DNA of 31,004 nt, taken from positions 1 through 31,004 of IMG/VR virus record IMGVR_UViG_3300036770_006762; one strand, given 5' to 3'. The notes beneath the pieces are model-generated. The model was given only the letters and a program-made list of their open reading frames with translations, searched no databases and was not told where the DNA came from. The number at the start of each line of letters is the position of its first letter. Positions within the stretch are counted from its first letter, which is position 1. Made by a program: the position numbers and the translations under genes. Of the stretch, positions 3,319 through 23,062 are shown one piece after another. The DNA is from a virus.

Positions 3319-3327
3319 AGTTTACCT

Positions 3328-4569: not shown

Positions 4570-4577
4570 TATTTATA
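4570..4577 (-). promoter_or_regulatory. Consensus T4-type late promoter octamer (TATAAATA)
   Basis: The minus strand carries an exact TATAAATA overlapping the stop of the 206-residue gene, 18 nt before the ATG of the 407-residue fibre-type gene. The leader holds AGGA 9 nt from the ATG, set in a small ACTA/TAGT hairpin loop. This is the best late promoter in the window and would start a fibre and glycosyltransferase transcript. Confidence 0.68.
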
Positions 4578-5193: not shown

Positions 5194-5342
5194 CAGTTAT
5201 CACCTCTTTTTTGCAACAAAACCTTTTTAGTATTTGGGTCAAATATTTTCAAATGAGTTGAAAAATTTAACCCAATATTTTCATTTGGCTTTTTAGGTGC
5301 TGCTTGCTTATTATTTTTTTGCATATTGTTTGTATTTATCAT
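5193..5342 (-). CDS. Small 49-residue protein between the giant wedge gene and the 206-residue gene
   Basis: The frame starts MINTNNMQKNNKQAAPK and ends LKIFDPNTKKVLLQKRGDN. Its ATG overlaps the stop of the giant gene by one base (TAATG at 5340-5344) and its TGA overlaps the next ATG by one base (TGATG at 5191-5195), the arrangement of a translated, coupled gene. The C-terminal ~18 residues match the N-terminal LKIYDPNTGEVLLDKSNA of the next protein, so it may be a truncated paralogue or a partner with the same fold element. The N-terminal half is Asn/Lys/Gln-rich and probably disordered. A second ATG at codon 7 is an alternative start, because a late-promoter-like GATAAATA overlaps codons 1-3. 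Function unknown. Confidence 0.7.
   Translation of the reverse strand: MINTNNMQKNNKQAAPKKPNENIGLNFSTHLKIFDPNTKKVLLQKRGDN
5333..5340 (-). promoter_or_regulatory. Late-promoter-like octamer (GATAAATA) at the start of the 49-residue gene
   Basis: The minus strand reads GATAAATA starting with the G of the first ATG of the 49-residue gene. If used, the transcript would begin at or near codon 7 of that gene, and would mainly serve the 206-residue gene and those beyond. It could also be chance in AT-rich coding sequence. Confidence 0.35.
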
Positions 5343-8300
5343 TAATTATTATCCATTCTCAAGAAAATAGCAGGAGCGGTATTACTAATTTGTAATGGTT
5401 CCCCGTCAGCCCAATCTAAATCATAGTAATCTTGATCCATTAAGTTTTCAGATAAGAATCCTAGTACTTGACTATATTTACTTATTAAATTAGGAGTTCC
5501 GGTAGTGTTTATACCTCTTTGTAATCCACTTAAAGAATTGTTTATTAAATCAACTTCTGCAAATGCTATTTGTTCAGCGCCTACATATATTCTATTCCCT
5601 TCAGTTATTGTAATCGTTAATACATCACCGTTTTCAATATAACTACTATTTGCAGTTATAACTATTGTGGGTACTAAATCAATTATTCTCAAAGAATAAT
5701 TTTCAGAATTTATATCTAAACTCTTTGTTTGGTTATAAACACTTACGCCAGACAACAAATTCTTATCGGCATTCAAACCAATGAAATACTCACCACTAAC
5801 TGCTATAGTGTTTGTTACGATTTGCTCTCTGATGGTTATCAGTTTTCTAACATCATTTACATAAATGGTTTCATCAGTAAATTTCAAATCTTGAGTCAAA
5901 TATGTTGTAGTAGAAGGTCCTTGTCTGTAAACCGTAGGTTGATTGATACTGTTTACGTTAATAAAGAATTTTTCTTGACTTGGTGTAGCAGATGGCATCA
6001 TTGTAGTTATGATGATTTCATCTGTATTTGTCACCGATGCCAAAATGCTAAGTTCATTGATATCATTTATCTTCAACAATGAAGATGATATCTTTTCTCC
6101 GTTGACGGTAACCCAAATTCTATTGACGTCGGTTTGTTCCCATTGAGTGACGTTCATTGAACCTGTTGCATTTGACAATGCTACTTCGGCACCATCTATG
6201 GTAGACGAAATTGTAAAGGTTGTTGAATTTATGATTTCTTTGACATAATATTTTTGTTGATCTATAATTCCACCAAATGATGTTACCGGTGAACTTGAAA
6301 TTATCATCTGAGTAAAATAAACCGGAGTTCCTACCACTAATTTAGAAGTACTATCAACGGTGATTCTATCGGTCGCAGCAACAGTCTCAGATGCAATTGC
6401 AGATGAAGGTAGTAAGAAATTATCCTTCAACCAACCATAACCTCCTGATACATAATCATTAACAAAAGTAACAGGACTATTAATTGCTAAAATAGCAGGA
6501 TCGTACGGTGCAGTATACAAATCAAATTGGGTAGTTGTTATTTTCTTCAAATAATAGGTGTTATTATTTAACTGAACTGAACCATTTATTCCATCTATTC
6601 GTATTACATCATTGTCAACGAAACTTGTCGGTGTGTCAAATGTTATTCTAACGGCAAGTTGTCCTCCCACTAATGCCACTGTATTTGAAACTGTAGGCGC
6701 ATTACCTGGATTAAATACCGGTCCTCCCAAAGTTTGAGAAATTGTTATATCATTACCGGATACGCTTAACACAAAATACACAGTGCCATCAACTAATACG
6801 TTTCCAAAAGAGGTCCCTGCAAATTGAATAGTTTGATTTATTGTTATTCCCGTAGTTGTACCCAAAGTTATAATATTTCCTGTACTAGACGCACTTACTA
6901 CTGAAGGTATTACAGAATAAGGGAATATTATATTACTAACTCCAATAATATTATAAACATATTTTCCTGTCAAACCCAATTCAGTATTAAAATATTGTCT
7001 TTCTGTATTATTAAAAGTAGTAACTTGAAGTGTTCCATTGGGCAAAGGTGAAGTAAATGTTATTTGATTCTGATCTCCATCAATAGTAAAATTACTTACA
7101 CGCAATCCATTTACTTCAACTATTGCATTTTCTTCATTTTCACCACCTGAATAATTTATCAAATCAAATGTTGCAGTAGAGCCATCTGCGCTAAAGGTTT
7201 GAGTTTCAGGCAAAGTGTACCCATATTGTGAATCTTCCCCTGAATCCCCAAAGACAGTGAATGATATATAGTCTGTTTCTGGATCCACAGTGCCATTTGC
7301 GAATACAATTTTTGCAAATCCGTACATATCAGAAGATATCGGTGCCAAAGAATAATCAGTTTTAAATAGCATTTTTACACCGTTGTTGTGAACAATAGGT
7401 TCTGTAAATACCGCAGATGAATTTTTAATTATTGATACATACATATTTCCAGTATCATCGGTTAGAGAAAATACAGGACCTGCTACACCATTAGAAGTCA
7501 ATGTGTCTGAAACAGTAATACTATTATTTTCATGATCGATATTTTTTATGTAATACGTATCGTTTCTTACAATATTACCAAAAGTCAAACCTGTAAATAT
7601 TATAGTTTGGTTAACATAGAAATATTCAACGTTATTAAAAACTATTTTATTTGAACTTGCTATTGTTTCTGTTGCAGTTACTACGAATAAATTTCCTGAA
7701 TCTCTAATGACTCCACCGTAATAATTATAATTTAAATATATCTCGTATAACCCAGTTGTTTCGTTTAATCTTAATGGCGATACATCAGTGTTAGATTTTA
7801 CTACTTGATTTCCATTTCCAACTTCATACACATTTACTAGAAGTTTATCACTTGTGGGTAAAAACGTTAATGGGTTGTTTAATATAATAGTTTTTTCTAT
7901 CCAATCAACAACATATTCAGTTTCTTGTAATCTTGTTGCAAAATTAGTTAAACCATCAACTACATAAACACTTAGTTGTGCAGGAACTTGAACCATATTA
8001 GCAAAGCTATATACGGTTTGTGTTCCGAACTCAGGAGTAAACTCTTGAGATATTGTGTTATACCCAACGTGTTGATATTCTGTTGCACTCCAAGTTGTCC
8101 CCGGAGTAGTATTTACTATCATAGTCATTGCATCGGTTATATTACCCGGAACTAATTCTTCTGGTCCATAACCATATTCAAAAGGTGCACCTTGCAAATC
8201 ATAGATAGTAGATACAGTGCTTGTAAAAGTTTTATCACTTATTTCACTATCTAACAAATATTGTTGCGTTGGTTCAAATGGGTTATTCAAATACGTTGCA

Positions 8301-11300
8301 TTTGGATAAGTAATATTTGCAACCAATTGTGTTAAATCTAATCCGGGCATATTTATAGTAGGACTATAATAACCCATAATTCTATCCAATGCATTTAATC
8401 TGTAATTATCGGAATTGATAAGTTCCCATTTTTCATAAACAAATTCAGAATCATAGTTACTAACTTTACAAACATATAATCTATTGTTAAATTTAACTAT
8501 ATTTTCTGTGAAAGAGTATGGATTTGATATGGCAATAGTAGAACCTAGTTTAGCCATATATAGTGTTTGTGGTGTTGCAGAACCAACGGTAAATGTAGAA
8601 CCACCGGGTGTCTCACTTATTGTTATAGTATTAGATGCTATCGCAGTTCCCGTACCTGATCCTACGCCAGAAGCAGTAAATATAACACCTACGGTATTTG
8701 ATGCTGCACCTATTAGAGTAAAATCAGTATCGCCCACAGTGTCAATCGTATACGTTTCACCCACAACAAATGATCCTGCAGTCAAAACAACGTTTTTTGC
8801 TTTTATAAAATAGGATCTTCCTAGTACTATATTTCCACCTGTTACTTGCCCAGTAAACACAACCAAATCATTCACACTAAAATCATCATCGGATGATAAT
8901 GTTATATTTGTTCCGGCTATTGATGTGACAACTGATGAAGTTATTCCGACATAAGGCAATCCTATTCCACTTACTGGCAAAGTTAAAGTAGGTTCTGAGT
9001 ACAATTCAAATTGAGTGGAAGAAATAGTTTTCAAATAGTATCTGTTAGTTTCGTCTGGTGGGTTTCCTGAACACAAAACATCTAAAATTTCACCATTAGA
9101 ACCTATTTCCATTACCAACATAGTTAAATCATTTACATCATCAGTTCCGCCTAGTTCAGAACCTTTTACTATTAACCTATTAGAAATCGCATATCCAACT
9201 CCAGGATTGGTTATAATGGCACTATACCCTCCCACAAGATAACTTATACTAAATTCAGAAGTAGTTGTAGGTGTTTGATTTATTGTCCTATTTGATACAT
9301 AAAGTTCAGTACTAGGAACAACTGTTATGGGAGATCCACCCACGCTAGTTGAAATTTGAATATATTGCTTACCTAAACCAACCATTTCTCCAATACCATC
9401 AGCAACAACTAGCGTTGCTCCACCGATTTCGTCTGTGATAGTAAAAGAAATCCCATCCATTGCAATACTTTTCACGAAGTAGTATGTATAAAGGCCTACT
9501 CCACCTATTCCAGATTCACCGCTAAAGATAATAGGCATGTCAACATACAAATATTCAGTGGAAGTACATTGCAATGAATTAGTGCTTGCTACAGTATTTG
9601 TCACTGTTACTGTTATCGAATCCTTAAAAACAACATAATATTGTTGTGTTTTGACTAAACTTCCTATATTTTCATTTACCTTTACAGGCATATTGTCATA
9701 AACATAGTCAAAATTACTATCAAGATAATTATCACTGGTATCAAAAATTATTATTCCTTCTGTTCCACTATTGATATTTTTCATTACTTTAATATCCATA
9801 GATATTAATAATTGTTCTGAAGGATTAATTTCAGTGAGTTCTCCTGAACTACTATAAAATTCAACCAATTGACCATTCATCTGACCCGGACTAACTGGGA
9901 AATCCATATTTATTAGCATTTCCCCGGAAGCAGTTGATAAGGCAATAGTGTCTATTTGACTAGTTCCAGTAGCAGTAGTATCACTCGCAGCAGATACAGT
10001 TGTAAGTGCAACAACTAAACCATTTATTTGTGAAGAAACAGTTATCCCGTTGTTACCGGATAATGATTTAACATAGTAAATTTCTCCAGAAGTTAATCCA
10101 CCAAATGAAGTAACTGAAGAACCTGCTATTTGCATATCAGTAAAAATTATAGGTTCGTTAAAAGAAAGAGTTGAATTTTCTTCTTTTAACGTGATCAAAT
10201 TTGTTCCAGTAGTCGTAGAAATTACTGTAAAGATTTTAGGAGATGCATTTTCAGAAATAGTAAAAGTATTTTCATTTACTACGGATGTTATGTAGTATTG
10301 TTGATTTTCTCTAACATTTCCAAATACATTTCCAGTAAAAAACACCGGCAGACCTGTATAAAAACCGCTAGTTCCCCATGTTCCTACCAAAGTAAAAGGA
10401 ACAGTTAACATATTTGTTGCACTCTGTGTATTTGTTACTGTTCTTATATTTGGATAATTTACTGAAACTATAGCTTTATCTATAGGTTGACCTACAATAC
10501 CTATCATATTATCATTTGCAGATGCATTACTCAATGTAAATGCAGGACCTCCTTCAGAAGCAGAAACAGTAAATTTATCTACTGATATAACAGTATCAAC
10601 ATAATAAACTGTATTTTCAACTAGATTACCTATCACATTCCCAGAAAATTTAATAGGCATTCCTGGATAAAAACCTATAGTAGAACGTGATGTATTGTCT
10701 AACGAAGAAGTTAATTTCAAGGTAATAATATTACCTGTCGAACTAGTACTTAAAATATTTCTGGTAACTGAAGAATATACGATTTCTCTGTTGTTTTCAA
10801 TAGAAGTAATACTGAACACCGTTCCTTGAAAACTTGCAAGTATTGAAGCAATAGGAGGTGCAGTACTTTGCAATGAAATATTCGATGACGCAGAATTGTA
10901 CGAAGAAGGAGTAGTGCTAGGATATTTTGCACTGTAAAAAACCCCAGGCTCCCAATTTGTAACTTGACTTGTGTAACTTGTTCTGTCAAATTTCAGCGTA
11001 ACATTATTTTCTCTTAAGGGTGCAGATGTAACCACAGAAATAGCCTTAGCACCCACACCAAACGTATAGGTTCCACTTCCTATATCAGTTAAATCAATAT
11101 GATTTTCATCATTGAGGTAATTTTGATAAGAATCGTATAGTTTTACGGAAACAATAGAGGTTGTTATATTTACCCTTATGTAATACCATTGATTATCAAT
11201 TAAATTACCCACAGAAGAACCACTAACAACCTTGTATTGCACTAAATCTCCAGATATCAAAGTGTTATTTGGAACAACATTTGATAAATTTATATTATCA

Positions 11301-14300
11301 TTACTAAACGAAATATTAGATGTTGAGAAATTTACAACTATTGAAGGTTCAATAACTATTTGAGGAGTAGTTAAATATCCGCTACCAGGATCAACAACTT
11401 CTACTCTCAAAACTTTATCCCCATTCATAATAGCAAACATTACTGCGGGTTTTGTAGGAGGAGGATATAAAGTAGTATCAATCAATGCATATACTTCAGG
11501 TGCTTCAACATATGCTCTTCCCGAATTCATAACCATTACTTCAGGTAGATTAATGAATATTTCTGAACCAGGAATATGAGTTGAAATCGCAGTTCCATTA
11601 ACTCCTCTTGTTAGATTTAACAATTTTCCATTTATTAAATCAACTGAGTTGTATAACATTACTTCATTATCAATAATAATTGTGCCATTTATAGGAAAAC
11701 TATATATGTTTTCAACTTCTATGTCGGTGGTATTAAGTTCAATATATGAATTTAATTTTGAAATCGGGATCATATCATAAGTTGACAATTTTAACCCGCG
11801 ATTTTCAAACCATTGTTGATATTTTCCTTCGTCCCAAATATCACCTGTAGTTGTGAAGGTAGTTACATTGTTTGGATTGTTATTTACCAATTGAGGTGTT
11901 ATGAATGTGTCTTGCTGTGTGTTGTATTGCGATGGCAAATCAAAATCAGTTATGTCACCTTCAAAAACATCAACACCGGTATACTTAAAGACAAATTCTT
12001 TAATCACAACGTGATATGGTTTGGTTTCTTCTATGTAACCCTCTAGGAATTCTTGATTGTCTGCCTGTAAATTTTCCAATGGTCTCAATTCACGTATCGT
12101 ATGGAATACATCCATCAATGATGTCTTGCTTAACCATGGTAAATAGTTTTGACTTTCTACAGTCTCACTCTGTATGTACTCAAACAATAGAATTAAACTC
12201 TTGTTTCTAAAGATCAAAAGTTCTTCTGTATAAATTTGTTCATTCAATGCTCTGATTATATTTCTTGTTTCTTCTGCGGGGAATGCATCGAAAGGAGAAG
12301 AATCAGAATCAAAGAAGCTTCCGTCAAAACCTATTCCACCTTGTACATAGTCCCAAAGAATAGATTTGAAACGTATGGTTCCATTCTTCAAACCTATTCT
12401 ATTCCAGCCCTCATTTGTATAGATATAGGTTTCAGCACCTTGTACATTGTTCTGTAGTACAGTAACGATAGTTCCAAAAGGAACGACCAATGTTGATAAA
12501 TCAGCATAGTAATTTACCTGATACGAAGATTTGGTTGCATTGCTGTAACCAGGTGCCCACCAGTTCACGTATTCCCAGTAATTTCTTGTGTTGAAGCCTT
12601 CTGCTATCTGACTGGTCATTACCGCAGCAGTAGAAGCATTTGCTTCTACCGTAGACAATGAAAGGACAGAGCCTGCGATAGTAGTTGAAACTTTGATTTG
12701 ATTTGTGCCTACTATTTCATTGACGTAATAAACAGTACCTGCAACCAAGTTACCAAAATTAGTTACACCTACTCCCAAGATTACCATTTCAGCGAACACT
12801 ATAGGTTCATTTACATTCAACGAAGAATTTTCTTCATTCAACGTAACAGTATTGTTAGTACCGTCTACTGATGCTACAGTAAATACCTTTACAGGATTAC
12901 CTGAAGTATTCAATAAAGATATGTCAGGCTTCAATTCAGTTATAGGGAACTGAGACAAAACAGTATTAGCGTATGTCAAGTAATTTTTCAGAGCCAATAA
13001 TCTATTGTAGAAGAAACTTTGTCTAGGTCTAGCAAGAATACCCGATTGCACCAACTTAGGTAGATATGGATCAGGAACGTTTGCACCTGTTTCATCCGCA
13101 CCACTTAAACTGTCTAATAGACGATCATATAATGACTGAGGAGTTCCTGAAATATCTTTAGGAACCCCTGGCAAGAAATCATCTGCAAAATCAACACGTA
13201 TCAATGAGTAAGAATTATGTACTACATCATCGTTGTTACCTGTCGCAAATCCAATATTCAAAATTGTGTCGGATGCATTGATGTATGGAGCACTATTATA
13301 CAAACCAAATACATTAGGAAGCAACGGAGCAAAATAACTTATACCAGAATCATTAGGAGATTGCAAATATCTCTCTATGATGGAGTCTGCTAGTGTTTTT
13401 CCTTGATCCACAAAGATGATATTTGTGTTTCTGACCCAATAGAAATATATAGGTGTCAATGTACCTTCATCATTTAAAATGTATTGTGTAGTGTACGATT
13501 CAAAGTCAAATGGTGTGCCAGGACCAGTATAGTTTATAGGAATGTCAGTGCTTGATATCCAACTATAGATTTCTACTTCACTTCCTGGAAATAGAGTACC
13601 CCAATATTGACTGTTGTAAAGAACATCATCATTTTGATGGTAGTTGACATACTTAACATTTGAGGTGTTGAACCATATTTGTCCTACGTGATTTGCGCCC
13701 CAAACTAATTTGCCGTTTACATCACCGCCCGAATTGTATCCAGCCGGATCTACGTTAGAAATAACATCAATGTTTTGTCTTGCGGCACCTAGTATTTTGC
13801 CTTGAAGAGGATCAATGTAATCAAGATTGACTAACGTATTATTGGTTTCGGCACTGAACAGCAAAGTATTAGCAACTTTATTGATGTCTACAACTGGTCC
13901 TGATTGTCTGTGGATTGACCAGTCTTTAACTTGAACATCATTTTCATAAACTGTTACCTTTCCACCAGATTGATCAGGGGTACCGATGATAACAGTGTAA
14001 TCGTTAAAATCAATTGCTGAACCATATCTTGGTTGGTTGCCATAGGTTTGATCCAGTGAATTTAAGCTTTGAGCATATACAAACTCACCTATGTTGCTTA
14101 TAGTTTCGTTGTATGTTGGTAAATAGTCAAACATGTAGACCGCACCTGCGTTTGCATATGTGTCTACCCATTGTGTTGCATTGTTATCAAAGATAGTATC
14201 ATTGTCTTGATTTTCATCATCTATGAAATCAAAGGTAGTACTTGAAAATCTTGTTCCAACTGGAGCACTAATTACTACTGATCCTTGTTCATTTATCTTC

Positions 14301-17300
14301 ACAATTGTTCCGAACTGTGTACGCTCCTCAACATGCGGGCATTCAATGACTTGTGTCCTAGAATAAATTACAAAACCCAATTCAGTTAATGCATCTGTAT
14401 CAGTTGATGTGATCACTAGTTTTTGATTTACCGGTGCAATTTCATTATTAACTAAACTTATAGTTAATATGTTGTTTGCTGAAGATGCAACTACATTTGT
14501 GATGTTGGCGTTATTTATTGTGCTTGCTGCCAATGCTGCATTGCCTGCTGGAATAGTTACGAGATAACCGTTTATTAAAATTACTCTAGATGTTGTCACT
14601 AAACATTCAGTTTCTCCTATCACAGAACCAAATTTTGCACCTGCATTGGTATATCTGTAAACCGCACCTTCTTGACGTTGAGTTACTAATTGGAAAGGTG
14701 CACCAACTAATATTTCAGCAGAATAATTAGTGGTATCTACACTTGTTCCGAACCTAGAACCTACTTGTGGTGTTTGTTCAGTAGTCAAAGTTTGCAACAA
14801 CGTAAATTCTTGACCACTTACATTGATGATATCACCAGAATTCAAATCTCCTACATATACAAAGTTGCTTCCTATGACTGCATAGTTACTGTCATTAACT
14901 TGTGTACCATTGACAGTTACATATAGTTGATCTTGTTGTACATTGGCAGTAGCAGAAGAGATCGATCCTTTAGTTAAAACTGCAACTGTATCAGTTGAAT
15001 CTCTAGAAGTTTTCAGAGTTATGTTAGGTGATGATACAGTTTTTACATAGTAAACAACATCAGATGAGATACCGGTATCTGCTAAACCCGACCCAGAGAA
15101 GATGATAGGATCATTCACTTCTACGTCCGTGACATCATTCAATGCAATTAAACTGCCACTTTCATTCGTAGAAGTAACGGTCGCTGAAAGTGTTGTAGGA
15201 GTCCATGCTAAACTAAATGTCTGTCTTACATTTGTAGTTGAATCCTGCACTTCAATATTCTGCACTGATCTAGAAAATACATAGGTGTATCCCCAATCAG
15301 CAGTGGATCCATTATAATCTTGAAACGGTGCACCTACAATTAACGTATCACCATAAAGGTTAGTGCTTAGAGAATAACCAAACTTATCACCTGTGTCAGT
15401 TAAGCCTAAAGCATCACCGTCAATCTTACTGGTGTTTACATAAGTTGTGTTATTTGCAGTTCCAGTTCCTGTTCCGGCACCATCAGCAACAAATGTTATC
15501 CCAACTGTATTAGATTTTGCACCTATTAAAGTAAAATCTGTTGTTCCTAGGCTTGTAATTGTATATGTCTGTCCAACGACAAAACTTCCAGCAGAAGTTG
15601 GAATAAACGACTTTTGGTAAACATAAACACTGTTGTTACCAACATCAGAGATATAGAGCCATTTTTGGTCATCAGAAATAGCCAATGCACTGCCCCAATC
15701 ATTTATTACTTCAGGAAAAATTACAACAGGAGGAGTAATTACTTGCACGGGAACTAACTCGTTAACCAATGAACCAATCTGCAATTCATACACATACACT
15801 GCACGACCTACGCCTGTTGGTTTAGAAACTACAAATATGTTACCTCCGTGAACCATAGTAGTTCCGAACGGAGATGCTTCAGTTATAATTTGTCTCAAAT
15901 TGTATTCTTGAGAAAGAGGATCAAAAACATAACGATACAACTTACCTGCTTCACTATCAGCAACTACATATCCTGCTTGATCAGTATACGCAACTGCACT
16001 TCCTAAAGTTCCAGAACCTGAGAGAGTCAAATCCTGTAAGTATTGGTAATTTATATTTTTTCTATAAACTGCCCAAGAACCATCACTACTAGTGTCAACC
16101 CAAACAGTGTTCTTTCTAAACTCACTGTCAAGTAAAGGTAAACTGTTGATGTCCGTTGTATATTCAACTCGTTGTGATTGTAATTTTAATCCTACACCTC
16201 TACCTTGAATTTGTGTTATAGTAGGATCTAAATTAGCAGAAACTAAAACCCTGAAATTATCCACGATAGATGCAACAATGTAGTATCCATCAATCCTCAA
16301 ATCAAAGTTCACTACTGCGAATGGTTCAAACTGTGTTAAGTTATGCTGTGAAGCAAAAGTAACGGTTATAGTGTTATTGAGATTGTTGTTTACCGCAATT
16401 ACTTGCCCTAAAGATTTAGGAGTGAATACTTCCCAGTTTTCTAAGAAATTTGCCAACCATGCATAATCTCTAACATAAAAATCTTGCACAGGCACAATAT
16501 TGCCCTTGGTGTTGGTTGCTGTTTCTAACCCAGAGTAAAAGTAAGATGTCATCTTTACATCGTTGAAATTTACATATCCAGCATCACTATAAATTTGGTT
16601 AGGTTCACTAGGTGATACAGTGGGCAAAATGTTTGGGTCCGTAATAGGAGTACCGTAATTGCTTACATTAGATAAGGTGACAACTTGTTGAACACCGTCA
16701 AAGGTAGTGCTATCACTTAATTGAACAATAGATGGATTTCCGGTTAACTTGCTTTGATTTAATCTTAGTTCAACAAAGTTGCTGTTTAGAACTCCGCCAA
16801 AACTTCCAGACTTGATTGCCCAATTTTCGTAGGTATCGTATTGAATTCCTCCCTGTGGTAGATCAATTCCCTTAAATGCAGAAATCGAATTCAATGTGCC
16901 TTTATCTTTTAACAAGTTTTTGTAGACATTTACTTGTGTGATATCAGTCAAATCTGCTGCATTCAAGTAATTTCTCGGTCTATATCCTATCAAGGAGAAT
17001 GATAACAAATCTGCATCTTTTTCTAGATTTGCGGTATTGATATCATAGTACAATGTGCTTTCGAATGATCTGGTGCTACTGTTGGGTAGCAATCCTTTTT
17101 GTATCTCGTCGTAATCAGTTACTTTCCACAAATTCTCTAAGAAGGTAGCACTTGCAGGAATGATATCCAATGAAATCCAAAATTTATTTTTGTACTTGAC
17201 TATCTCACCTTTGGTATATTTCTTGTTAGCAGTCCATTCTTGGATGTTGTCTTGATTCAAGATGAAGCCAAATGCATCTACTAAGCCATTCCAATCTGCG

Positions 17301-20300
17301 GATTTGCTTCCTCTAACAAATATTCTATTCTGTCTCAACCCTGTTATAGGATTGTAAATGAGGTCATCAAACAAAGTTAAGTTGTCAAAAACTATACCAT
17401 GTTCCATGTTACCTAAATTGAATTGACCATATGATATGGTATCACCTTCATTCAATGCAGTCAAAGAGAACAATGTATTTTCACGCAATATGTTCAAATC
17501 AACTGATTTGATTGGATATAAATTTTGATTTAGAACAAAGTTAGTTTGTTGCAATGTCAAAGGCTGTACAATTGTGCTTTCCTTATTGATCATTAGATTT
17601 TTCGCAGCAGGATTTAATGTTACCAAACTTCCATCTTGCCATCCAAGTTGTGACCAATAAATGAATTCTGCTACCATTTGTTGCCAGGTAACGTGTATGC
17701 CATTTTCAATTTGATCAAACTGCATACCTTGCTTTTCAACATATGCACCGTAATTCATTACGAACTGAGCGACTTCTTGAACTGTACTGAAAATTGTTCT
17801 GTACGGAACAATTACTTCTTTGTTTTCAAAGTATGTATTTGCTACTCTAACTGAAACATTTTCGACAGTTACGTTTGCATAACTATCAAATTTAGGTTGA
17901 AGAGTTTTAAAGTACGGAGTCAATTGACTATTCCCGTACACGGAGTAACCCTGTGGAACTTTCTGAACCAATATTCCAGAGTAAACTATTCTGTTGAATG
18001 GCTGATTATCATACAAAAGAACAGAGAAACTTTCGTCAGGTATCAACAATGACACATTAGTATCATTGGGAGAACCCTTCTCAACATAAAACTTCAATAA
18101 AGTCTTATCGCTAAATCCAGCCAATCTGTATACCAATCTAGTATCTAGGTTGTCTAACAAATTAGTGATATTTTCAGTTGCATCTAAACCAAATTGTTTT
18201 TCATAGTCAACAATCCAATTCAAATAACTGGTTTTTGCAGTTCCGTTACCATAAATTTGAATATCACTTAATATTAAGTGTTTTCTATCACCAACCAGGT
18301 ACTGATTAAATTCTTCGCTATACTTATAATTGTCTAAGTCAATTCCCAAATTCAAAAATTGTGCTGGCTTCATCAAAGCAAAAATTTTCATTAAATCAAA
18401 CGGGAATGTGCTACTTCTTCTGTAACTCAATTCTACTGGAGAAACATCTCCCAGTTTCCAATCTCTTCTAAAGAGTTTAGAATCATATCCACCCACAATT
18501 GAATTGAAAGGTGGTTTGATATTGCCTGCACTGTCAACTGGAATTATTTGTAATAACCCAGGTCTAATGAATTCAGGTAAAACTATAGGATTTCCATTAT
18601 TGTAGTTGATACCATTACTTAAATCTTCCCACATAACTAAGTTATCACCGGTGTACGGTGCTTCACCGTAACGTGCATCCCACCAATCTGGTTTGTTAGT
18701 GAACCCTATCATTTCCCAAGGGGTAGTGTTAGGTGTACTAGTATCATAGAAATATTGATAAATACCTCTCCAATAACCCTGTGACAGTGGCTGTTTAGAT
18801 AACTTATCTTGGCTTTCCCAGTAGTTATATGTGAATTTGTTATTTGAGTTATAGAATTGTGTTTTGTAATCCAATCTATTCTGACCGATCCAACTTAAGA
18901 ATCCATAACTATACAAATCTAACCATTCTGCGTATGTGTAATCAGTTTCTCTGAAATTGCCAGGAACTAATGTATATGGATTAATCGGTAGAGCAGCACT
19001 TATTTTCAAGTTGTTATAAATTCTAAGTTCAAATTCAAGTAAAACCTGATCCCTAAAATCAATTAATATACCCAATTCGGTATTGTATTCACCGTATAAC
19101 TTGTTAAATGATCCATCATGCCCTCTAATGAAATATGTAGGATTGTTATAATTATTATCAAGTACGACTGAAGGAATAGTTGCTGGATATAAACCCAACT
19201 TAGTTGGAGTATTAGGAACATAACTTCCATATGTTTGATTATATTCATTAATTGTGATTATATCATTTGGTTGTAGTGTTGTAGTTATAGTTAACGAACT
19301 TGATTCTGAACTAACGGTATAGTCTTGATTTATAACCAGTTGAGTTATTTTGTTTACGCCAGAAACTCTTCTTGTTAGATAAACCAATACACCATTATAA
19401 TTTGCACTTGCAAAATTATATACCTGACTTAGAGGGAAAGTTGTAGTATATAAGATGTTGTTGAATGTGTAAGAGTTACTTACAAATGGTGTTTTGGAGG
19501 GTAGCATGTCACTCCAAAAGAATGGCTGATTATCAGTTTTAGCAGAAGTTATTTGTTCCAATGCATCATCTAGCATAGTTGCTGCATCAAATCTTTGTTG
19601 ATAGTCAGATTTTTGAACAACATCAACTAGTAAATTTTTGAACTTAATATATTCTCTACTATTAAATTCTATTGAATTAAAAACATTATGATCTGGTTTT
19701 CTTAATAATGCACCAACAATCGCAAGACTTGCACTGTTTTGTATTATCCTATCACCATATGGAACGGTATTTCCCAAATCTCTAAAATTATTACTTCCGA
19801 ATACTTCACCTTGAGAATTTGGATTATTAAAAAATATACTTTGATATTGATTTCTAATATCACCTACATTAACTGTTTCTATATCTTCATTTAAAGGATT
19901 GTTGCTTAAGTTAACAGGTATTTCATAGTAAGCAGTTTGACTTACTTGATTACTCAATAAAAGAACCTGTATCAAAGTATCTTCTAATATTTCAACGTCA
20001 GTTAAGGTAATAACAGTTTTATTAGTGATAACTTCAACTGTATATTGACTACTATTCAATAATGTATTGTTGATTAAAACTTTTATAGTTGGCCAATTGG
20101 TTTCGATATCATTTAGTTTTTCAATATCACATGTTAATACATTTGTTGGATTGTTAACGTAGTATTGGAATTGAAATACCTGATATTGAATACTAGGTGA
20201 TACTGAAGTTTGCCAACCTAATTGTCGTGTGAAATTGGTTAAACTAGAGTAGTTATAAACATATCCTGTATTAACTTTTTGAGTGATAGATTCTAAGCCC

Positions 20301-23062
20301 GAAACATAATTAAAGGAATCTATATTAAATGATACATCGAAACTAATATCTCCTACGTTTTCAACAGAACTGAATCTTAAAGGTATTTTCAAAATAGGAT
20401 CGTCTAGACTAGAACCTATACCATAACTAAAAAGTTTTGTTCCAGTAAAAGTGCTACTATTGTATATAGCAGTATCACCGAAACTTATACCATTTGCATC
20501 TAAAATATCAAACAGAGGAGGCTGGTTTATGTCAATCTTTGTTTGTCCTACTATCCATTCAGTTCCGGTAAAATAAAATTGTTTACTAATATTGTTTACA
20601 CCTCTGGTTGCAACTGTCTGTTGGTTTGCTAACACAGTACCGTTTTCATCTTCATATAAATTTATAGTCGGAGGCGAAACACCATCGACTGACACAAATC
20701 TTGAAACAAATATTTTATTTTTAACTGATTCGTCAGCCGTAAAAACAATTTTTGCCCCTTCAAACAATGAATAGTTGTCTAAGTTTAATCCAGTTGCAAC
20801 CAACGACAAATCTGAGGTAGTATCAAAATAAACATCAGTAGTTTGTGTCCATTCTACTGTTATAGTTAATATTGTTGTTCCGGTAATAGAACTTATAAGA
20901 GTATTTCTGGGTAAAATATCTAATGAATCTGCAATGTATTGTTCTTCAGCGAATGTACCCGTTACATCACCGGCATTAATAGTCAGTGTTGTACTTTGAG
21001 GTAACCAATCAAAAGACCAGGGACCGTCTAATGGAGGATCGGGCAAGTCAACAGAAAAACCAACATTAGATCCATTTTTTACTGAAGAGATAGTAAATGT
21101 AGTACTATCTACTATCTGACTTACATAATAAACTTCGCCGTTTGTTATACCCAACGCAACAGGGACGTCATCGAATATGATAATATCATTTATTCTAAAG
21201 CCCAAAGTTGAATCACATGTAAATTCCTTTGAAGATAAATCATAGGATGTTAGACTTCTTCCGGGCGCATAGTTTGTACCGGTTAAACTTGCAGTATATT
21301 TGGTATATACGTTGACGTCAGGATAGTATTGTAATTGATCTGCTACGAAATTAAATGCGTCAGTTGTCCTAGTATCAATAAAGTCAATTGCTTGTTTTCC
21401 TTCTATACCAGAATTGAACAATTTCAAGTTTGGATAGAATTCAATGATAGGTCTTTTTGCTTTGTTGTCAGTAGTGCTTAGAGTTTCAATTAGATCGGGA
21501 TTGTTATTAAACAATGCTGAAGTTCGTATGACATCTATATGGAACCAACGGTTGCTTCGTGACCATGCATTCCTGTCAATACTATTTCTTGCAATTGTTA
21601 TATAATCAGGTATAACCGGAACGAAAGATGCACCATCAAAACCTGTAGTGTCAAATGGCACCGAATCAAAACTTACTTCAACTGTTTCAGTATATGCTTC
21701 TGGTGTTTCTAAAACTTCAGTGGGGATAAGTTGTATACCTACTCCCACATTCTCAACATAATATTGACCTGATCTGTAGGACTCCGGAAAAACATTACCA
21801 GAGAATTGTACTTTTAATCCATTGGTAAACTCTATTCCAACTGGTGAAGTGTACTGAGACTTTCCTAATATTTCAGTATCAACATTTATGAAATTTACAT
21901 CATTGTTTTCAATGATCTTGATAATTCCAACCTTATCAGGATCAGATTCATCTTGGTAGTACAATGTTGACAATTCAGCACTTAAGTACGGAATTAAATT
22001 TACTGAACCGTCGGGTGCCTTATAGAAACTCCTATCACCATATGTTTCACCAAATAAAACTTTGATTTCTTGATCAATAGAGACACTAGTTGAACTTACT
22101 AAATTCAAAGTAGGATCTTCGCTTGATCCACTATATGTTATAGTGTAGAAAGTTGCAGTTTCGGTCACAACATCAGAATAAAGTAATAAACTTAATCCAT
22201 TCAACGAACTTACACCGTCAATATTTTTAACTGTTGACAACAATTGCCCATTTATTTGACTGAATGACAGTTCACTTACCAGATCAACGGTTGTTTCGGT
22301 TTCAAAGTTGTATTGGCTTTGTGCATTTGCTGCAGGGACAGTAAATGTAACGGTACCGTTGTTTATTCCGTTATTTGTAACACCCAACACTTCTCTAGTT
22401 TGCATGTTGGGATTAGTAGGATCTATACCTGTTATTCCTCTTGCGCCCTGAATCCAAAATTTAGAATTTTGATTTACACTGAATGTATACGTTCCGCCTC
22501 TTAAAAGAATAACAGTAGGATTGTCTGATTCAGTTTGGATAGGGTCACTAGACAGTATCATACTGTAACTATTTTTATTGTTTACTACATCATAGTCACC
22601 TACTAGGTAAACTATATTAGGAGTAACAGTTACTGCTGCTGGCCCTTCAGGTAACCAATAATATTGATTGAAGTTAATTATCTTATCTAGGTTAGTAAAA
22701 GAATCCCAAGAATAAATTTGACTTTCAAATAATCTGCTGTTGTTATCAGTTAGACTATTTTCTAATTTCAATCCATCTATTATTCCAGGATAACTTATAA
22801 AATCTTGCGTGCCTATTTTATTTTCTTTAGTGAATATAATACCGGGGTCTAATTGATAATCTGTTCTGATTTTATTAGGTTCAGTTACATAATAAGAATT
22901 TGCATCTATACCATATCCTAATCTGCTACCCACATAACCTTCAATTCTCTTAAAATTAGGCTGTGCTACTAATTGGTCTAACGTAGCATTTAAAAATTGT
23001 GCGTTGGTAGGCGTTTGAAAAATTTCTGGTAAAAAATTCAAAGTTCTTATTCTTGTTGCCAT
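5342..23062 (-). CDS. 7: Giant modular baseplate wedge protein in the gp7 position (5,906 residues)
   Basis: One uninterrupted 17.7-kb frame begins 3 nt after gp6, where T4-like phages carry gp7 (1,032 residues in T4), the peripheral wedge protein. Visible regions: N-terminus 1-140 (TLNFLPEIFQTPTNAQFLNA, QIYSWDSFTNLDKIINFNQY); a beta module at ~605-676; a Trp/Tyr-rich conserved-looking core ~1150-2100 (LFRRDWKLGDVSPVELSYRR); a seven-bladed FG-GAP-type propeller ~2342-3039; a region ~3150-3390 and a helical segment ~3600-3705 (YLPWLSKTSLMDVFHTIREL); then a C-terminal ~2,200 residues built mainly from copies of one ~70-90-residue beta module, ending in DDYYDLDWADGEP-like sequence (MDQDYYDLDWADGEPLQ). 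No signal peptide or membrane segment was seen. The gp7 name rests on position and on the propeller followed by a helical segment, which I recall T4 gp7 also resembling; sequence similarity was not tested. Expansion suggests fibre-like surface arms. Confidence 0.75.
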   Translation of the reverse strand: MATRIRTLNFLPEIFQTPTNAQFLNATLDQLVAQPNFKRIEGYVGSRLGYGIDANSYYVTEPNKIRTDYQLDPGIIFTKENKIGTQDFISYPGIIDGLKLENSLTDNNSRLFESQIYSWDSFTNLDKIINFNQYYWLPEGPAAVTVTPNIVYLVGDYDVVNNKNSYSMILSSDPIQTESDNPTVILLRGGTYTFSVNQNSKFWIQGARGITGIDPTNPNMQTREVLGVTNNGINNGTVTFTVPAANAQSQYNFETETTVDLVSELSFSQINGQLLSTVKNIDGVSSLNGLSLLLYSDVVTETATFYTITYSGSSEDPTLNLVSSTSVSIDQEIKVLFGETYGDRSFYKAPDGSVNLIPYLSAELSTLYYQDESDPDKVGIIKIIENNDVNFINVDTEILGKSQYTSPVGIEFTNGLKVQFSGNVFPESYRSGQYYVENVGVGIQLIPTEVLETPEAYTETVEVSFDSVPFDTTGFDGASFVPVIPDYITIARNSIDRNAWSRSNRWFHIDVIRTSALFNNNPDLIETLSTTDNKAKRPIIEFYPNLKLFNSGIEGKQAIDFIDTRTTDAFNFVADQLQYYPDVNVYTKYTASLTGTNYAPGRSLTSYDLSSKEFTCDSTLGFRINDIIIFDDVPVALGITNGEVYYVSQIVDSTTFTISSVKNGSNVGFSVDLPDPPLDGPWSFDWLPQSTTLTINAGDVTGTFAEEQYIADSLDILPRNTLISSITGTTILTITVEWTQTTDVYFDTTSDLSLVATGLNLDNYSLFEGAKIVFTADESVKNKIFVSRFVSVDGVSPPTINLYEDENGTVLANQQTVATRGVNNISKQFYFTGTEWIVGQTKIDINQPPLFDILDANGISFGDTAIYNSSTFTGTKLFSYGIGSSLDDPILKIPLRFSSVENVGDISFDVSFNIDSFNYVSGLESITQKVNTGYVYNYSSLTNFTRQLGWQTSVSPSIQYQVFQFQYYVNNPTNVLTCDIEKLNDIETNWPTIKVLINNTLLNSSQYTVEVITNKTVITLTDVEILEDTLIQVLLLSNQVSQTAYYEIPVNLSNNPLNEDIETVNVGDIRNQYQSIFFNNPNSQGEVFGSNNFRDLGNTVPYGDRIIQNSASLAIVGALLRKPDHNVFNSIEFNSREYIKFKNLLVDVVQKSDYQQRFDAATMLDDALEQITSAKTDNQPFFWSDMLPSKTPFVSNSYTFNNILYTTTFPLSQVYNFASANYNGVLVYLTRRVSGVNKITQLVINQDYTVSSESSSLTITTTLQPNDIITINEYNQTYGSYVPNTPTKLGLYPATIPSVVLDNNYNNPTYFIRGHDGSFNKLYGEYNTELGILIDFRDQVLLEFELRIYNNLKISAALPINPYTLVPGNFRETDYTYAEWLDLYSYGFLSWIGQNRLDYKTQFYNSNNKFTYNYWESQDKLSKQPLSQGYWRGIYQYFYDTSTPNTTPWEMIGFTNKPDWWDARYGEAPYTGDNLVMWEDLSNGINYNNGNPIVLPEFIRPGLLQIIPVDSAGNIKPPFNSIVGGYDSKLFRRDWKLGDVSPVELSYRRSSTFPFDLMKIFALMKPAQFLNLGIDLDNYKYSEEFNQYLVGDRKHLILSDIQIYGNGTAKTSYLNWIVDYEKQFGLDATENITNLLDNLDTRLVYRLAGFSDKTLLKFYVEKGSPNDTNVSLLIPDESFSVLLYDNQPFNRIVYSGILVQKVPQGYSVYGNSQLTPYFKTLQPKFDSYANVTVENVSVRVANTYFENKEVIVPYRTIFSTVQEVAQFVMNYGAYVEKQGMQFDQIENGIHVTWQQMVAEFIYWSQLGWQDGSLVTLNPAAKNLMINKESTIVQPLTLQQTNFVLNQNLYPIKSVDLNILRENTLFSLTALNEGDTISYGQFNLGNMEHGIVFDNLTLFDDLIYNPITGLRQNRIFVRGSKSADWNGLVDAFGFILNQDNIQEWTANKKYTKGEIVKYKNKFWISLDIIPASATFLENLWKVTDYDEIQKGLLPNSSTRSFESTLYYDINTANLEKDADLLSFSLIGYRPRNYLNAADLTDITQVNVYKNLLKDKGTLNSISAFKGIDLPQGGIQYDTYENWAIKSGSFGGVLNSNFVELRLNQSKLTGNPSIVQLSDSTTFDGVQQVVTLSNVSNYGTPITDPNILPTVSPSEPNQIYSDAGYVNFNDVKMTSYFYSGLETATNTKGNIVPVQDFYVRDYAWLANFLENWEVFTPKSLGQVIAVNNNLNNTITVTFASQHNLTQFEPFAVVNFDLRIDGYYIVASIVDNFRVLVSANLDPTITQIQGRGVGLKLQSQRVEYTTDINSLPLLDSEFRKNTVWVDTSSDGSWAVYRKNINYQYLQDLTLSGSGTLGSAVAYTDQAGYVVADSEAGKLYRYVFDPLSQEYNLRQIITEASPFGTTMVHGGNIFVVSKPTGVGRAVYVYELQIGSLVNELVPVQVITPPVVIFPEVINDWGSALAISDDQKWLYISDVGNNSVYVYQKSFIPTSAGSFVVGQTYTITSLGTTDFTLIGAKSNTVGITFVADGAGTGTGTANNTTYVNTSKIDGDALGLTDTGDKFGYSLSTNLYGDTLIVGAPFQDYNGSTADWGYTYVFSRSVQNIEVQDSTTNVRQTFSLAWTPTTLSATVTSTNESGSLIALNDVTDVEVNDPIIFSGSGLADTGISSDVVYYVKTVSSPNITLKTSRDSTDTVAVLTKGSISSATANVQQDQLYVTVNGTQVNDSNYAVIGSNFVYVGDLNSGDIINVSGQEFTLLQTLTTEQTPQVGSRFGTSVDTTNYSAEILVGAPFQLVTQRQEGAVYRYTNAGAKFGSVIGETECLVTTSRVILINGYLVTIPAGNAALAASTINNANITNVVASSANNILTISLVNNEIAPVNQKLVITSTDTDALTELGFVIYSRTQVIECPHVEERTQFGTIVKINEQGSVVISAPVGTRFSSTTFDFIDDENQDNDTIFDNNATQWVDTYANAGAVYMFDYLPTYNETISNIGEFVYAQSLNSLDQTYGNQPRYGSAIDFNDYTVIIGTPDQSGGKVTVYENDVQVKDWSIHRQSGPVVDINKVANTLLFSAETNNTLVNLDYIDPLQGKILGAARQNIDVISNVDPAGYNSGGDVNGKLVWGANHVGQIWFNTSNVKYVNYHQNDDVLYNSQYWGTLFPGSEVEIYSWISSTDIPINYTGPGTPFDFESYTTQYILNDEGTLTPIYFYWVRNTNIIFVDQGKTLADSIIERYLQSPNDSGISYFAPLLPNVFGLYNSAPYINASDTILNIGFATGNNDDVVHNSYSLIRVDFADDFLPGVPKDISGTPQSLYDRLLDSLSGADETGANVPDPYLPKLVQSGILARPRQSFFYNRLLALKNYLTYANTVLSQFPITELKPDISLLNTSGNPVKVFTVASVDGTNNTVTLNEENSSLNVNEPIVFAEMVILGVGVTNFGNLVAGTVYYVNEIVGTNQIKVSTTIAGSVLSLSTVEANASTAAVMTSQIAEGFNTRNYWEYVNWWAPGYSNATKSSYQVNYYADLSTLVVPFGTIVTVLQNNVQGAETYIYTNEGWNRIGLKNGTIRFKSILWDYVQGGIGFDGSFFDSDSSPFDAFPAEETRNIIRALNEQIYTEELLIFRNKSLILLFEYIQSETVESQNYLPWLSKTSLMDVFHTIRELRPLENLQADNQEFLEGYIEETKPYHVVIKEFVFKYTGVDVFEGDITDFDLPSQYNTQQDTFITPQLVNNNPNNVTTFTTTGDIWDEGKYQQWFENRGLKLSTYDMIPISKLNSYIELNTTDIEVENIYSFPINGTIIIDNEVMLYNSVDLINGKLLNLTRGVNGTAISTHIPGSEIFINLPEVMVMNSGRAYVEAPEVYALIDTTLYPPPTKPAVMFAIMNGDKVLRVEVVDPGSGYLTTPQIVIEPSIVVNFSTSNISFSNDNINLSNVVPNNTLISGDLVQYKVVSGSSVGNLIDNQWYYIRVNITTSIVSVKLYDSYQNYLNDENHIDLTDIGSGTYTFGVGAKAISVVTSAPLRENNVTLKFDRTSYTSQVTNWEPGVFYSAKYPSTTPSSYNSASSNISLQSTAPPIASILASFQGTVFSITSIENNREIVYSSVTRNILSTSSTGNIITLKLTSSLDNTSRSTIGFYPGMPIKFSGNVIGNLVENTVYYVDTVISVDKFTVSASEGGPAFTLSNASANDNMIGIVGQPIDKAIVSVNYPNIRTVTNTQSATNMLTVPFTLVGTWGTSGFYTGLPVFFTGNVFGNVRENQQYYITSVVNENTFTISENASPKIFTVISTTTGTNLITLKEENSTLSFNEPIIFTDMQIAGSSVTSFGGLTSGEIYYVKSLSGNNGITVSSQINGLVVALTTVSAASDTTATGTSQIDTIALSTASGEMLINMDFPVSPGQMNGQLVEFYSSSGELTEINPSEQLLISMDIKVMKNINSGTEGIIIFDTSDNYLDSNFDYVYDNMPVKVNENIGSLVKTQQYYVVFKDSITVTVTNTVASTNSLQCTSTEYLYVDMPIIFSGESGIGGVGLYTYYFVKSIAMDGISFTITDEIGGATLVVADGIGEMVGLGKQYIQISTSVGGSPITVVPSTELYVSNRTINQTPTTTSEFSISYLVGGYSAIITNPGVGYAISNRLIVKGSELGGTDDVNDLTMLVMEIGSNGEILDVLCSGNPPDETNRYYLKTISSTQFELYSEPTLTLPVSGIGLPYVGITSSVVTSIAGTNITLSSDDDFSVNDLVVFTGQVTGGNIVLGRSYFIKAKNVVLTAGSFVVGETYTIDTVGDTDFTLIGAASNTVGVIFTASGVGSGTGTAIASNTITISETPGGSTFTVGSATPQTLYMAKLGSTIAISNPYSFTENIVKFNNRLYVCKVSNYDSEFVYEKWELINSDNYRLNALDRIMGYYSPTINMPGLDLTQLVANITYPNATYLNNPFEPTQQYLLDSEISDKTFTSTVSTIYDLQGAPFEYGYGPEELVPGNITDAMTMIVNTTPGTTWSATEYQHVGYNTISQEFTPEFGTQTVYSFANMVQVPAQLSVYVVDGLTNFATRLQETEYVVDWIEKTIILNNPLTFLPTSDKLLVNVYEVGNGNQVVKSNTDVSPLRLNETTGLYEIYLNYNYYGGVIRDSGNLFVVTATETIASSNKIVFNNVEYFYVNQTIIFTGLTFGNIVRNDTYYIKNIDHENNSITVSDTLTSNGVAGPVFSLTDDTGNMYVSIIKNSSAVFTEPIVHNNGVKMLFKTDYSLAPISSDMYGFAKIVFANGTVDPETDYISFTVFGDSGEDSQYGYTLPETQTFSADGSTATFDLINYSGGENEENAIVEVNGLRVSNFTIDGDQNQITFTSPLPNGTLQVTTFNNTERQYFNTELGLTGKYVYNIIGVSNIIFPYSVIPSVVSASSTGNIITLGTTTGITINQTIQFAGTSFGNVLVDGTVYFVLSVSGNDITISQTLGGPVFNPGNAPTVSNTVALVGGQLAVRITFDTPTSFVDNDVIRIDGINGSVQLNNNTYYLKKITTTQFDLYTAPYDPAILAINSPVTFVNDYVSGGYGWLKDNFLLPSSAIASETVAATDRITVDSTSKLVVGTPVYFTQMIISSSPVTSFGGIIDQQKYYVKEIINSTTFTISSTIDGAEVALSNATGSMNVTQWEQTDVNRIWVTVNGEKISSSLLKINDINELSILASVTNTDEIIITTMMPSATPSQEKFFINVNSINQPTVYRQGPSTTTYLTQDLKFTDETIYVNDVRKLITIREQIVTNTIAVSGEYFIGLNADKNLLSGVSVYNQTKSLDINSENYSLRIIDLVPTIVITANSSYIENGDVLTITITEGNRIYVGAEQIAFAEVDLINNSLSGLQRGINTTGTPNLISKYSQVLGFLSENLMDQDYYDLDWADGEPLQISNTAPAIFLRMDNN
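6120..11335 (-). repeat. C-terminal array of about eleven 'YYV' beta modules
   Basis: Copies are seen at about 11335-11055 (variant), 10762-10490, 10450-10225, 10230-9950, 9760-9600 (short), 9600-9370, 8950-8790 (partial), 7690-7440, 6915-6655, 6660-6480 (variant) and 6410-6120. Typical copies read FTGNVFGNVRENQQYYITSV with NTFTISE, or IQFAGTSFGNVLVDGTVYFV with NDITISQTLGGPVF. A shorter relative at 9065-8955 shares YYLKxIxxTQFxLY with the variant at 6660-6480. I recall phage proteins with this pattern being annotated as having a 'ubiquitin-activating E1 FCCH' type beta domain; this was not checked. The units are well diverged in DNA, so the amplification is old or under exchange. Confidence 0.68.
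8635..8783 (-). repeat. 'GSFVVG' domain, copy 2 (in the C-terminal module array)
   Basis: Residues ~4760-4809 read AGSFVVGETYTIDTVGDTDF, TLIGAASNTVGVIFTA and end GVGSGTGTAI. They are nearly superimposable on copy 1, about 2,270 residues upstream in the protein. On the plus strand both copies share a stretch of the form GCACCTATTA(A/G)AGTAAAATC, so similarity persists in DNA. Confidence 0.7.
12600..12890 (-). repeat. 'YYV' beta module just after the propeller region
   Basis: Residues ~3391-3487 carry SVDGTNNTVTLNEENSSLNV, NEPIVFAEMVI, TNFGNLVAGTVYYVNEIVGT and IKVSTTIAGSVLSLSTV. It is closest to the copy at 9950-10230 (LKEENSTLSFNEPIIFTDMQ, TSFGGLTSGEIYYVKSL), with shared EENS, NEPI(V/I)F, NFG/SFG and a closing L(S/T)TV. 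Confidence 0.65.
14960..15180 (-). repeat. 'YYV' beta module inserted between propeller blades 4 and 5
   Basis: The segment reads VEVNDPIIFSGSGLADTGIS, then DVVYYVKTVSSPNITLKTSR and a closing TDTVAVLTKG. This is the same module as in the C-terminal array, here placed in the loop between two propeller blades and followed by a short strand-rich segment (QLYVTVNGTQVNDSNYAVIG). Boundaries are approximate. Confidence 0.6.
15451..15598 (-). repeat. 'GSFVVG' domain, copy 1 (between propeller blades 3 and 4)
   Basis: Residues ~2488-2537 read AGSFVVGQTYTITSLGTTDF, TLIGAKSNTVGITFVA and end GAGTGTGTAN. The same ~50-residue domain occurs again at 8635-8783. It is a short beta domain that I recall as widespread in marine phage fibre proteins; function not known to me. 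Confidence 0.7.
21035..21250 (-). repeat. N-terminal copy of the ~70-90-residue 'YYV' beta module
   Basis: Residues ~605-676 of the giant protein follow the pattern seen in the C-terminal array: a strand ending in (D/N)xIIF, a short loop, GxVYYV, then a T(F/I)T(I/V)S strand and a Gly-rich turn (FRINDIIIFDDV, TNGEVYYVSQIVDSTTFTIS). It is isolated from the other copies by almost 2,000 residues. Boundaries are approximate. Confidence 0.6.

Follow-up and report, generated by a model that had tools for sequence, protein, structure and literature searches.

Nearly all contractile tails contain a wedge protein of the gp7 type. In phage T4 the baseplate genes follow the order 53-5-6-7-8, and gp7, a protein of 1,032 amino acids (PHROG 964; PF21427, PF21428 and PF21456), is encoded directly after gp6. 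In phage P2 the slot following the gp6/J equivalent belongs to gpI (Tail_P2_I, PF09684), a minimal equivalent of gp7. The same slot can also hold a giant. In the cyanophage P-SSM2, gp7 is 5,195 amino acids long (PHROG 2885, profile length 4,179), is encoded directly after gp25 and gp6, and has a detectable T4 gp7 core. For marine T4-like phages, the pelagimyophage literature describes T4 gp7 as absent and “substituted” by VrlC (PMC7029224), and the cyanophage giant gp7 is possibly the VrlC of that literature. The baseplate region of P-SSM2 has two giants, since gene 113 (stretch L211, 22244-29764, plus strand) is a 2,506-residue frame after gp8.

The closest described relatives of the protein reported here are the giant virion proteins of the RaK2-type jumbo phages, PHROG 10938, which include PA5oct gp355, GAP32 gp230, Munch gp262, CBB_236, phAPEC6 gp245 and the giants of Atu_ph07 and Phosso. 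The order hub, gp25, gp6, giant, phrog_11259 recurs in these phages, and in Phosso, Munch, GAP32, Atu_ph07, PA5oct, Vibrio 2.275.O and XacN1 a protein of 3,313-4,555 residues comes after gp6. The giant homologue lies directly 3′ of gp6 in seven of eight reference phages, the exception being SCTP-2. These proteins are annotated as “virion structural protein”, “structural protein” or “hypothetical protein”, and the family is filed under “head and packaging”. Mass spectrometry places homologues in the virions of three phages: PA5oct gp355 was detected by ESI-MS/MS; phAPEC6 gp245, equated with the giant by its numbering beside the wedge protein gp244 and by its mass of 381.88 kDa, was found in purified virions with 17 unique peptides at 7.6% coverage (PMC7247149); and CBB_236, equated by its numbering beside gp6 (CBB_237), was found in purified virions with 21 peptides at 7.72% coverage (PMC5259590). 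At a coverage of just 7-8%, parts of the chain may escape detection.

The window analysed here is a stretch of viral DNA of 31,004 bases, an IMG/VR record classed as linear and representing a fragment rather than a whole genome. Its genes are transcribed in the order hub/gp5-like gene, gp25, gp6, giant and phrog_11259, followed by two fibre-like genes, the first with a Peptidase_G2 domain, and by several smaller genes, one of which has a weak, unannotated PHROG match. The main features are as follows.

26948..30625, minus strand: gp5/VgrG-like baseplate hub protein, 1,225 amino acids (phrog_13211, E 1.7e-35; PF04717 weak).
26485..26934, minus strand: gp25-like baseplate wedge subunit, 149 amino acids (PF04965 over cut-off).
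23066..26434, minus strand: gp6-like baseplate wedge subunit, 1,122 amino acids (phrog_10646 “baseplate wedge subunit”, E 6e-260; tblastn).
5342..23062, minus strand: giant virion structural protein of the PHROG 10938 family, 5,906 amino acids, 651.6 kDa (single open reading frame; PHROG 10938 E down to 1.7e-78 on pieces).
4573..5193, minus strand: phrog_11259 protein, which regularly follows the giant on its 3′ side (PHROG match; records of relatives; SCTP-2 gene 139).
3328..4551, minus strand: fibre-like protein with a Peptidase_G2 (self-cleaving chaperone) domain (PF11962 over cut-off; phrog_14394/15511).

The gp6-like protein matched 71 phages by tblastn, and its best matches, in RaK2-type jumbo phages, are about 33% identical; at 1,122 residues it is enlarged compared with the 660 residues of T4 gp6. 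The hub protein matches the hub/lysozyme family at residues 28-412 only, and Pfam finds no lysozyme domain in it. The fibre-like neighbour at 3328-4551 probably cleaves itself, as its intramolecular chaperone domain scores over the Pfam cut-off. Two adjoining genes at 423-2014 on the minus strand, of 264 and 266 amino acids, look glycosyltransferase-like by eye (one weak, unannotated PHROG match) and possibly modify fibres or host surface sugars.

By profile similarity, the giant is a member of PHROG 10938. Four pieces of the frame matched this family with E values of 1.3e-49 to 1.7e-78 and 5.9e-44, the matches are collinear over profile positions 22-2481 of 3,324, and it was the sole strong family match that the pieces returned. 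Six blocks of the frame (residues 1-156, 410-577, 722-1243, 1280-2169, 3028-3379 and 3487-3744) are likewise collinear with the reference giants, at 22-44% identity per block. A BFVD search returned members of the same family, some of them named “YHYH domain-containing”. The core at residues 1280-2169 matches 260 IMG/VR stretches, and a broader alignment matches at least 598. In all 37 IMG/VR records that could be read from gp6 into the next gene, a set that includes a few identical copies, the giant is one uninterrupted frame of 5,702-7,756 residues with a median of 6,401, and phrog_11259 follows it; the latter is present in 37 of 38 records of relatives. The giant of the window is thus no outlier and stands towards the small end of its own clade, whose members are longer than the reference giants.

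The preliminary description had placed the giant at the locus of T4 gp7 and suggested that giant frames may occur there in other marine T4-like phages. As to position this is borne out, both by the place of the frame directly downstream of gp25 and gp6 and by the giant gp7 of P-SSM2; together with the VrlC literature (PMC7029224), P-SSM2 shows that a giant at this place has precedents. Whether the protein belongs to the gp7 family is another matter. The two regions proposed for a profile search, residues 1-300 and 3550-3750, reach an hhalign probability of at most 2.2% against T4 gp7 and P-SSM2 gp7, as do all conserved blocks against T4-type gp7 and the N-terminus of P-SSM2 gp7, while the control comparison of T4 gp7 with P-SSM2 gp7 gives 82.6%. 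Against any part of P-SSM2 gp7, profile alignment of the conserved blocks stays at or below 8%. At the level of sequence, the best hits go to a non-gp7 family, PHROG 10938, which is an outcome that the preliminary description had named as speaking against its reading. Pieces of the frame had no match at E 0.1 to PF21427, PF21428, PF21456, PF23786 or PHROG 964/2885. In the reverse direction, a 200-residue core of T4 gp7 finds itself, Aeh1 and P-SSM2 gp7 (E 2.9e-4) and matches nothing in the complete genomes of eight RaK2-type or related phages. PF21427, PF21428 and PF23786 gave none or insignificant short matches in eight reference genomes and ten long contigs of the clade, and the same screening found gp25 in 20 of 20 genomes. 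PF09684 matched none of the 20 genomes and no relative of the giant; T4 and P-SSM2 were also unmatched, so this model says little about gp7 of the T4 type. Two contigs showed weak Gp7_helical matches at about residue 4240 in the module region, which look like chance (E 0.02-0.06, 17 positions). Among the Foldseek and VIA rows shown for the two folded regions, residues 1-596 and 3020-3760, there is no gp7, an absence that carries no weight against a gp7 fold.

Since no other gp7- or P2 gpI-like gene was found in the eight reference genomes or the ten long contigs, the giant may well do the job of gp7. The T4 homologues of CBB listed in the available part of its report include gp6, gp25 and gp53, and gp7 is not among them (PMC5259590). 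The name “gp7” should be used for this protein as a label of position and not of ancestry. The foremost alternative is that the giant is a true gp7 homologue diverged beyond detection, whose short core (the core-bundle and trifurcation helices) would lie concealed within the conserved scaffold, the rest having been inserted or added. The gene position would fit, P-SSM2 provides the precedent of a real gp7 core inside a 5,195-residue frame, and one short module (module C below) occurs weakly in P-SSM2 gp7 too. Residues 3590-3740 are moreover predicted to be partly helical, with the helices partly at low confidence, and residues 3673-3731 give the best, insignificant, alignment to the N-terminus of P-SSM2 gp7 (2.2%). 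However, the T4 core that does detect P-SSM2 gp7 detects none of this family, no member has a convincing match to the Pfam families PF21427, PF21428, PF23786 and PF09684, and solved structures searched by sequence with two profiles returned empty or insignificant results. We consider hidden homology unlikely, though it is the likeliest of the alternatives.

What the giant does contain is a conserved backbone interrupted by regions that differ among relatives. The blocks of the backbone and the predicted domains in and between them, from the N-terminus onwards, are the following.

22595..23062, minus strand: conserved N-terminal segment, residues 1-156 (LNFLPEIFQT...YYWLPEGP; tblastn, 57 phage records).
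21908..22603, minus strand: predicted cupredoxin-like beta-sandwich, residues 154-385 (AlphaFold pLDDT mostly >90).
21275..21865, minus strand: conserved block, residues 400-596 (YITIxRNSxDxNAWSRSNRWFHIDVI), common to the reference phages (alignment conservation).
19358..20905, minus strand: conserved core block, residues 720-1235.
16463..19360, minus strand: best conserved core block, residues 1235-2200 (alignment).
17177..17239, minus strand: weak CBM_5_12-like stretch within the core, residues 1942-1962 (PF02839, 18.4 bits, below the cut-off of 26.2).
14005..16461, minus strand: FG-GAP repeat region, residues 2201-3020, a probable beta-propeller (PF14312 over cut-off at residues 2557-2596).
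12893..14005, minus strand: conserved core block, residues 3020-3390 (alignment; AlphaFold).
11783..12595, minus strand: conserved block, residues 3490-3760, with a predicted helical hairpin after residues 3510-3564 (AlphaFold).

The N-terminal segment is common to the RaK2-type giants and SCTP-2 gene 140, and AlphaFold models it with low confidence; across relatives, the N-termini have no known Pfam domain except for a weak CBM_5_12 match in Phosso, and the giant of PAC2 is annotated as “chitin-binding type-3 domain-containing”. Within the core, residues 1280-1759 are 25-35% identical to the reference jumbo phages. The region at residues 2201-3020, which probably contains a beta-propeller, is common to Atu_ph07 and Phosso and reduced in the enterobacterial phages, and the predicted sandwich is missing or partial in most RaK2-type homologues. 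Models were made for residues 1-596 (pLDDT 70.1) and 3020-3760 (pLDDT 75.9). The best VIA match of the sandwich is rusticyanin (Z 9.6, rmsd 1.8, 90 aligned residues); we do not read it as a copper protein, because the resemblance is one of fold only and an alignment of 77 sequences has no conserved His or Cys column at residues 154-400. Residues 3510-3564 are weakly tailspike-like (VIA Z 5.1, 47 residues aligned to an Acinetobacter phage tailspike), and a Foldseek search of residues 3020-3760 against the PDB gave nothing below E 0.6. The predicted domain content suggests an adhesive, surface-rich protein.

Length in this clade varies as two types of small module, A and B, appear and vanish at fixed sites; these modules and a third, C, lie in the window as follows.

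21062..21253, minus strand: module A copy, residues 604-667, present or absent here among relatives (anchor spacing, module search).
14963..15181, minus strand: module A copy, residues 2628-2700 (anchor spacing, module search).
12644..12880, minus strand: module A copy splitting the conserved core, residues 3395-3473; 1 of 35 aligned sequences has a match here.
15455..15592, minus strand: module B, 46 amino acids, residues 2491-2536.
8642..8779, minus strand: second module B copy, residues 4762-4807.
11537..11749, minus strand: module C, residues 3772-3842.
5495..5593, minus strand: module C at the C-terminus, residues 5824-5856, common to the C-termini of the PA5oct, Atu_ph07 and Phosso giants.
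5342..11782, minus strand: C-terminal module region, residues 3761-5906, with about eight further module A copies, one module B and two module C.

Module A is about 77 residues long (consensus ...NTITVSSTSGFYVNDPIVFTGTVFGGIVAGTTYYVKSI...TFTISETLGG...), with 11-12 copies in the giant of the window and 8-17 in its relatives, where copy number correlates with length at r 0.60. Outside the giant it is rare in the loci fetched, where the giant accounts for 148 of 150 module A frames, most of these loci having been chosen for the giant, and it was not found in the eight reference jumbo-phage giants scanned. The C-terminal module region, of about 2,100 residues, is specific to the clade of the window and cannot be aligned to the reference phages save near its end. 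Length differences come in near-fixed quanta of about 82 and 50 residues, and the spacings between conserved anchors fall mostly into classes: 20-29 or 102-111 residues at the site of residues 595-705, 29-39 or 114-123 at residues 2600-2720, 26-34 or 75-85 at residues 2480-2560, and 17-25, 86-95 or 140-153 at residues 4690-4830. These steps match module A (about 82) and module B (about 50).

Module B (consensus AGSFVVGQTYTI..TTDFTLIGA.SNTVG..F.A.G.G.GTGTA, also given as AGSFVVGQTYTI...GTGTGTA) travels more widely. Searched with a query of 61 residues, it is encoded in at least 542 IMG/VR stretches, and in the best 80 of these, 45 copies lie in other frames that form 25 groups without detectable flank similarity. 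It is 58-84% identical across phage proteins with unrelated flanks, occurs in three deposited phages inside differently named proteins, and has no match in Pfam. In one frame, module B seems by eye to have been inserted into a tail tip protein of the lambda J kind. No DNA tandem repeats were found in the window; the modules are related at the protein level, and little DNA similarity remains among them there.

We put roughly even trust in the reading that the giant is an outer baseplate-wedge scaffold and adhesive skirt in the place of gp7. It would sit on the outer side of the baseplate wedge, beside gp6 and gp25, and connect the fibre proteins, whose genes lie just downstream, to the inner ring of the wedge. 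The conserved backbone, six blocks between residue 1 and about residue 3,760, would be the shared structural part. The propeller region, the cupredoxin-like sandwich, the weak carbohydrate-binding-like stretch and some 15 small beta-rich modules, mostly C-terminal, would be added surface that grows and shrinks by module insertion and loss. If six copies are assumed, the mass comes to about 3.9 MDa, and the visible arms or skirt proposed in the preliminary description would likewise depend on that assumption. The argument for a wedge role proceeds from position and elimination. Adjacency to gp6, homologues in virions, the lack of another gp7-like gene, the gene block of SCTP-2, dN/dS and the length classes count in its favour; the filing of PHROG 10938 under “head and packaging”, the separation from gp6 in SCTP-2, the 7-8% peptide coverage and the lack of a sequence or fold link between the giant and any baseplate protein count against it.

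Salicola phage SCTP-2 bears on the choice between this and a second alternative, that the giant is a baseplate- or tail-attached fibre or whisker-like adhesin outside the wedge core, with the job of gp7 done by an unrecognised small protein or dispensable. In SCTP-2 the homologue is gene 140, of 3,807 residues, and it travels in a block with phrog_11259 (gene 139) and a long-tail-fibre connector rather than with gp6. The joint movement of the block with fibre-type genes is compatible with a place at the periphery of the wedge and leaves room for a pure adhesin. A compact gp7 was sought there in gene 240, directly after gp6, and rejected, as it is a gp15-like tail sheath stabiliser. The modular, propeller- and lectin-like content would suit an adhesin, and CBB and phAPEC6 have hair-like tail appendages without assigned genes (PMC5259590, PMC7247149). 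The authors of the CBB report, however, expect GAP32 to be without whisker genes, yet GAP32 has the giant (PMC5259590). Adjacency to gp6 in all the phages read other than SCTP-2 and the strong conservation of the backbone also speak against it, and we regard an adhesin outside the wedge core as distinctly improbable.

The preliminary description saw one uninterrupted frame of 5,906 residues covering 57% of the window, nearly six times the length of T4 gp7 and apparently selected as one product. The listing of open reading frames agrees: a single frame, starting with ATG 3 nucleotides past the stop codon of gp6, runs without an internal stop, and the length ratio to T4 gp7 is right. The computed product has a pI of 4.3 and is rich in Thr, Ser, Asn and Val, with 315 Lys and Arg and 7 Cys in its 5,906 residues. 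Across nine pairs of relatives, dN/dS is 0.04-0.23 in each of eight segments, the C-terminal one included; the cores tend to have the smallest values and the C-terminal end the largest. Low values along the chain, single frames in the relatives and a C-terminal module common to PA5oct, Atu_ph07 and Phosso argue for selection on one product. T4-type phages process some structural proteins, and a polyprotein cut into several virion proteins, of which only part stays on the baseplate, might also yield the low coverage of 7.6-7.7% in the homologues. With so few Lys and Arg, low tryptic coverage is expected even without cleavage; the pieces of the frame that were scanned have no protease domain above the cut-off, and the low dN/dS across the whole frame is a further point against cleavage, which we hold to be very improbable. 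That a metagenomic contig carries here an assembly artefact or a chance open frame can be dismissed, since 37 relatives carry the frame in full and dN/dS lies far under 1; the giant is real and functional.

A PHROG 10938 giant in the gp7 slot is known, and we found no description of the enlarged modular form. It is conceivable, though we think it rather doubtful, that in a lineage of large phages an unrelated modular wedge protein has taken over from gp7. Small mobile beta-modules, captured and lost time and again, would have brought it to 5,702-7,756 residues (up to 838 kDa), and one of these modules also travels between phage structural genes that are not related to each other. Were this true, the host contact surface would evolve by turnover of baseplate modules and not at the fibre tips only. 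A lineage without a recognisable gp7 and with a modular substitute of 650-840 kDa would also show, as an experiment of nature, which wedge parts are indispensable, and would allow the growth of a virion protein through inserted modules to be followed. The number of relatives indicates that this is common biology, annotated as “virion structural protein” or “hypothetical protein”.

The longest of the 37 relatives, in the same slot of contig IMGVR_UViG_3300032331_000813, has 7,756 residues and a mass of 838 kDa. Another relative lies on a contig of 524,565 bases (IMGVR_UViG_3300027749_002876), so the clade includes very large phages. In SCTP-2, gene 141 (stretch L203, 6609-15899, plus strand), directly upstream of the displaced giant, is a second giant frame of 3,096 residues, and it and its neighbour gene 142 have in common a stretch of about 65 residues, which occurs many times over.
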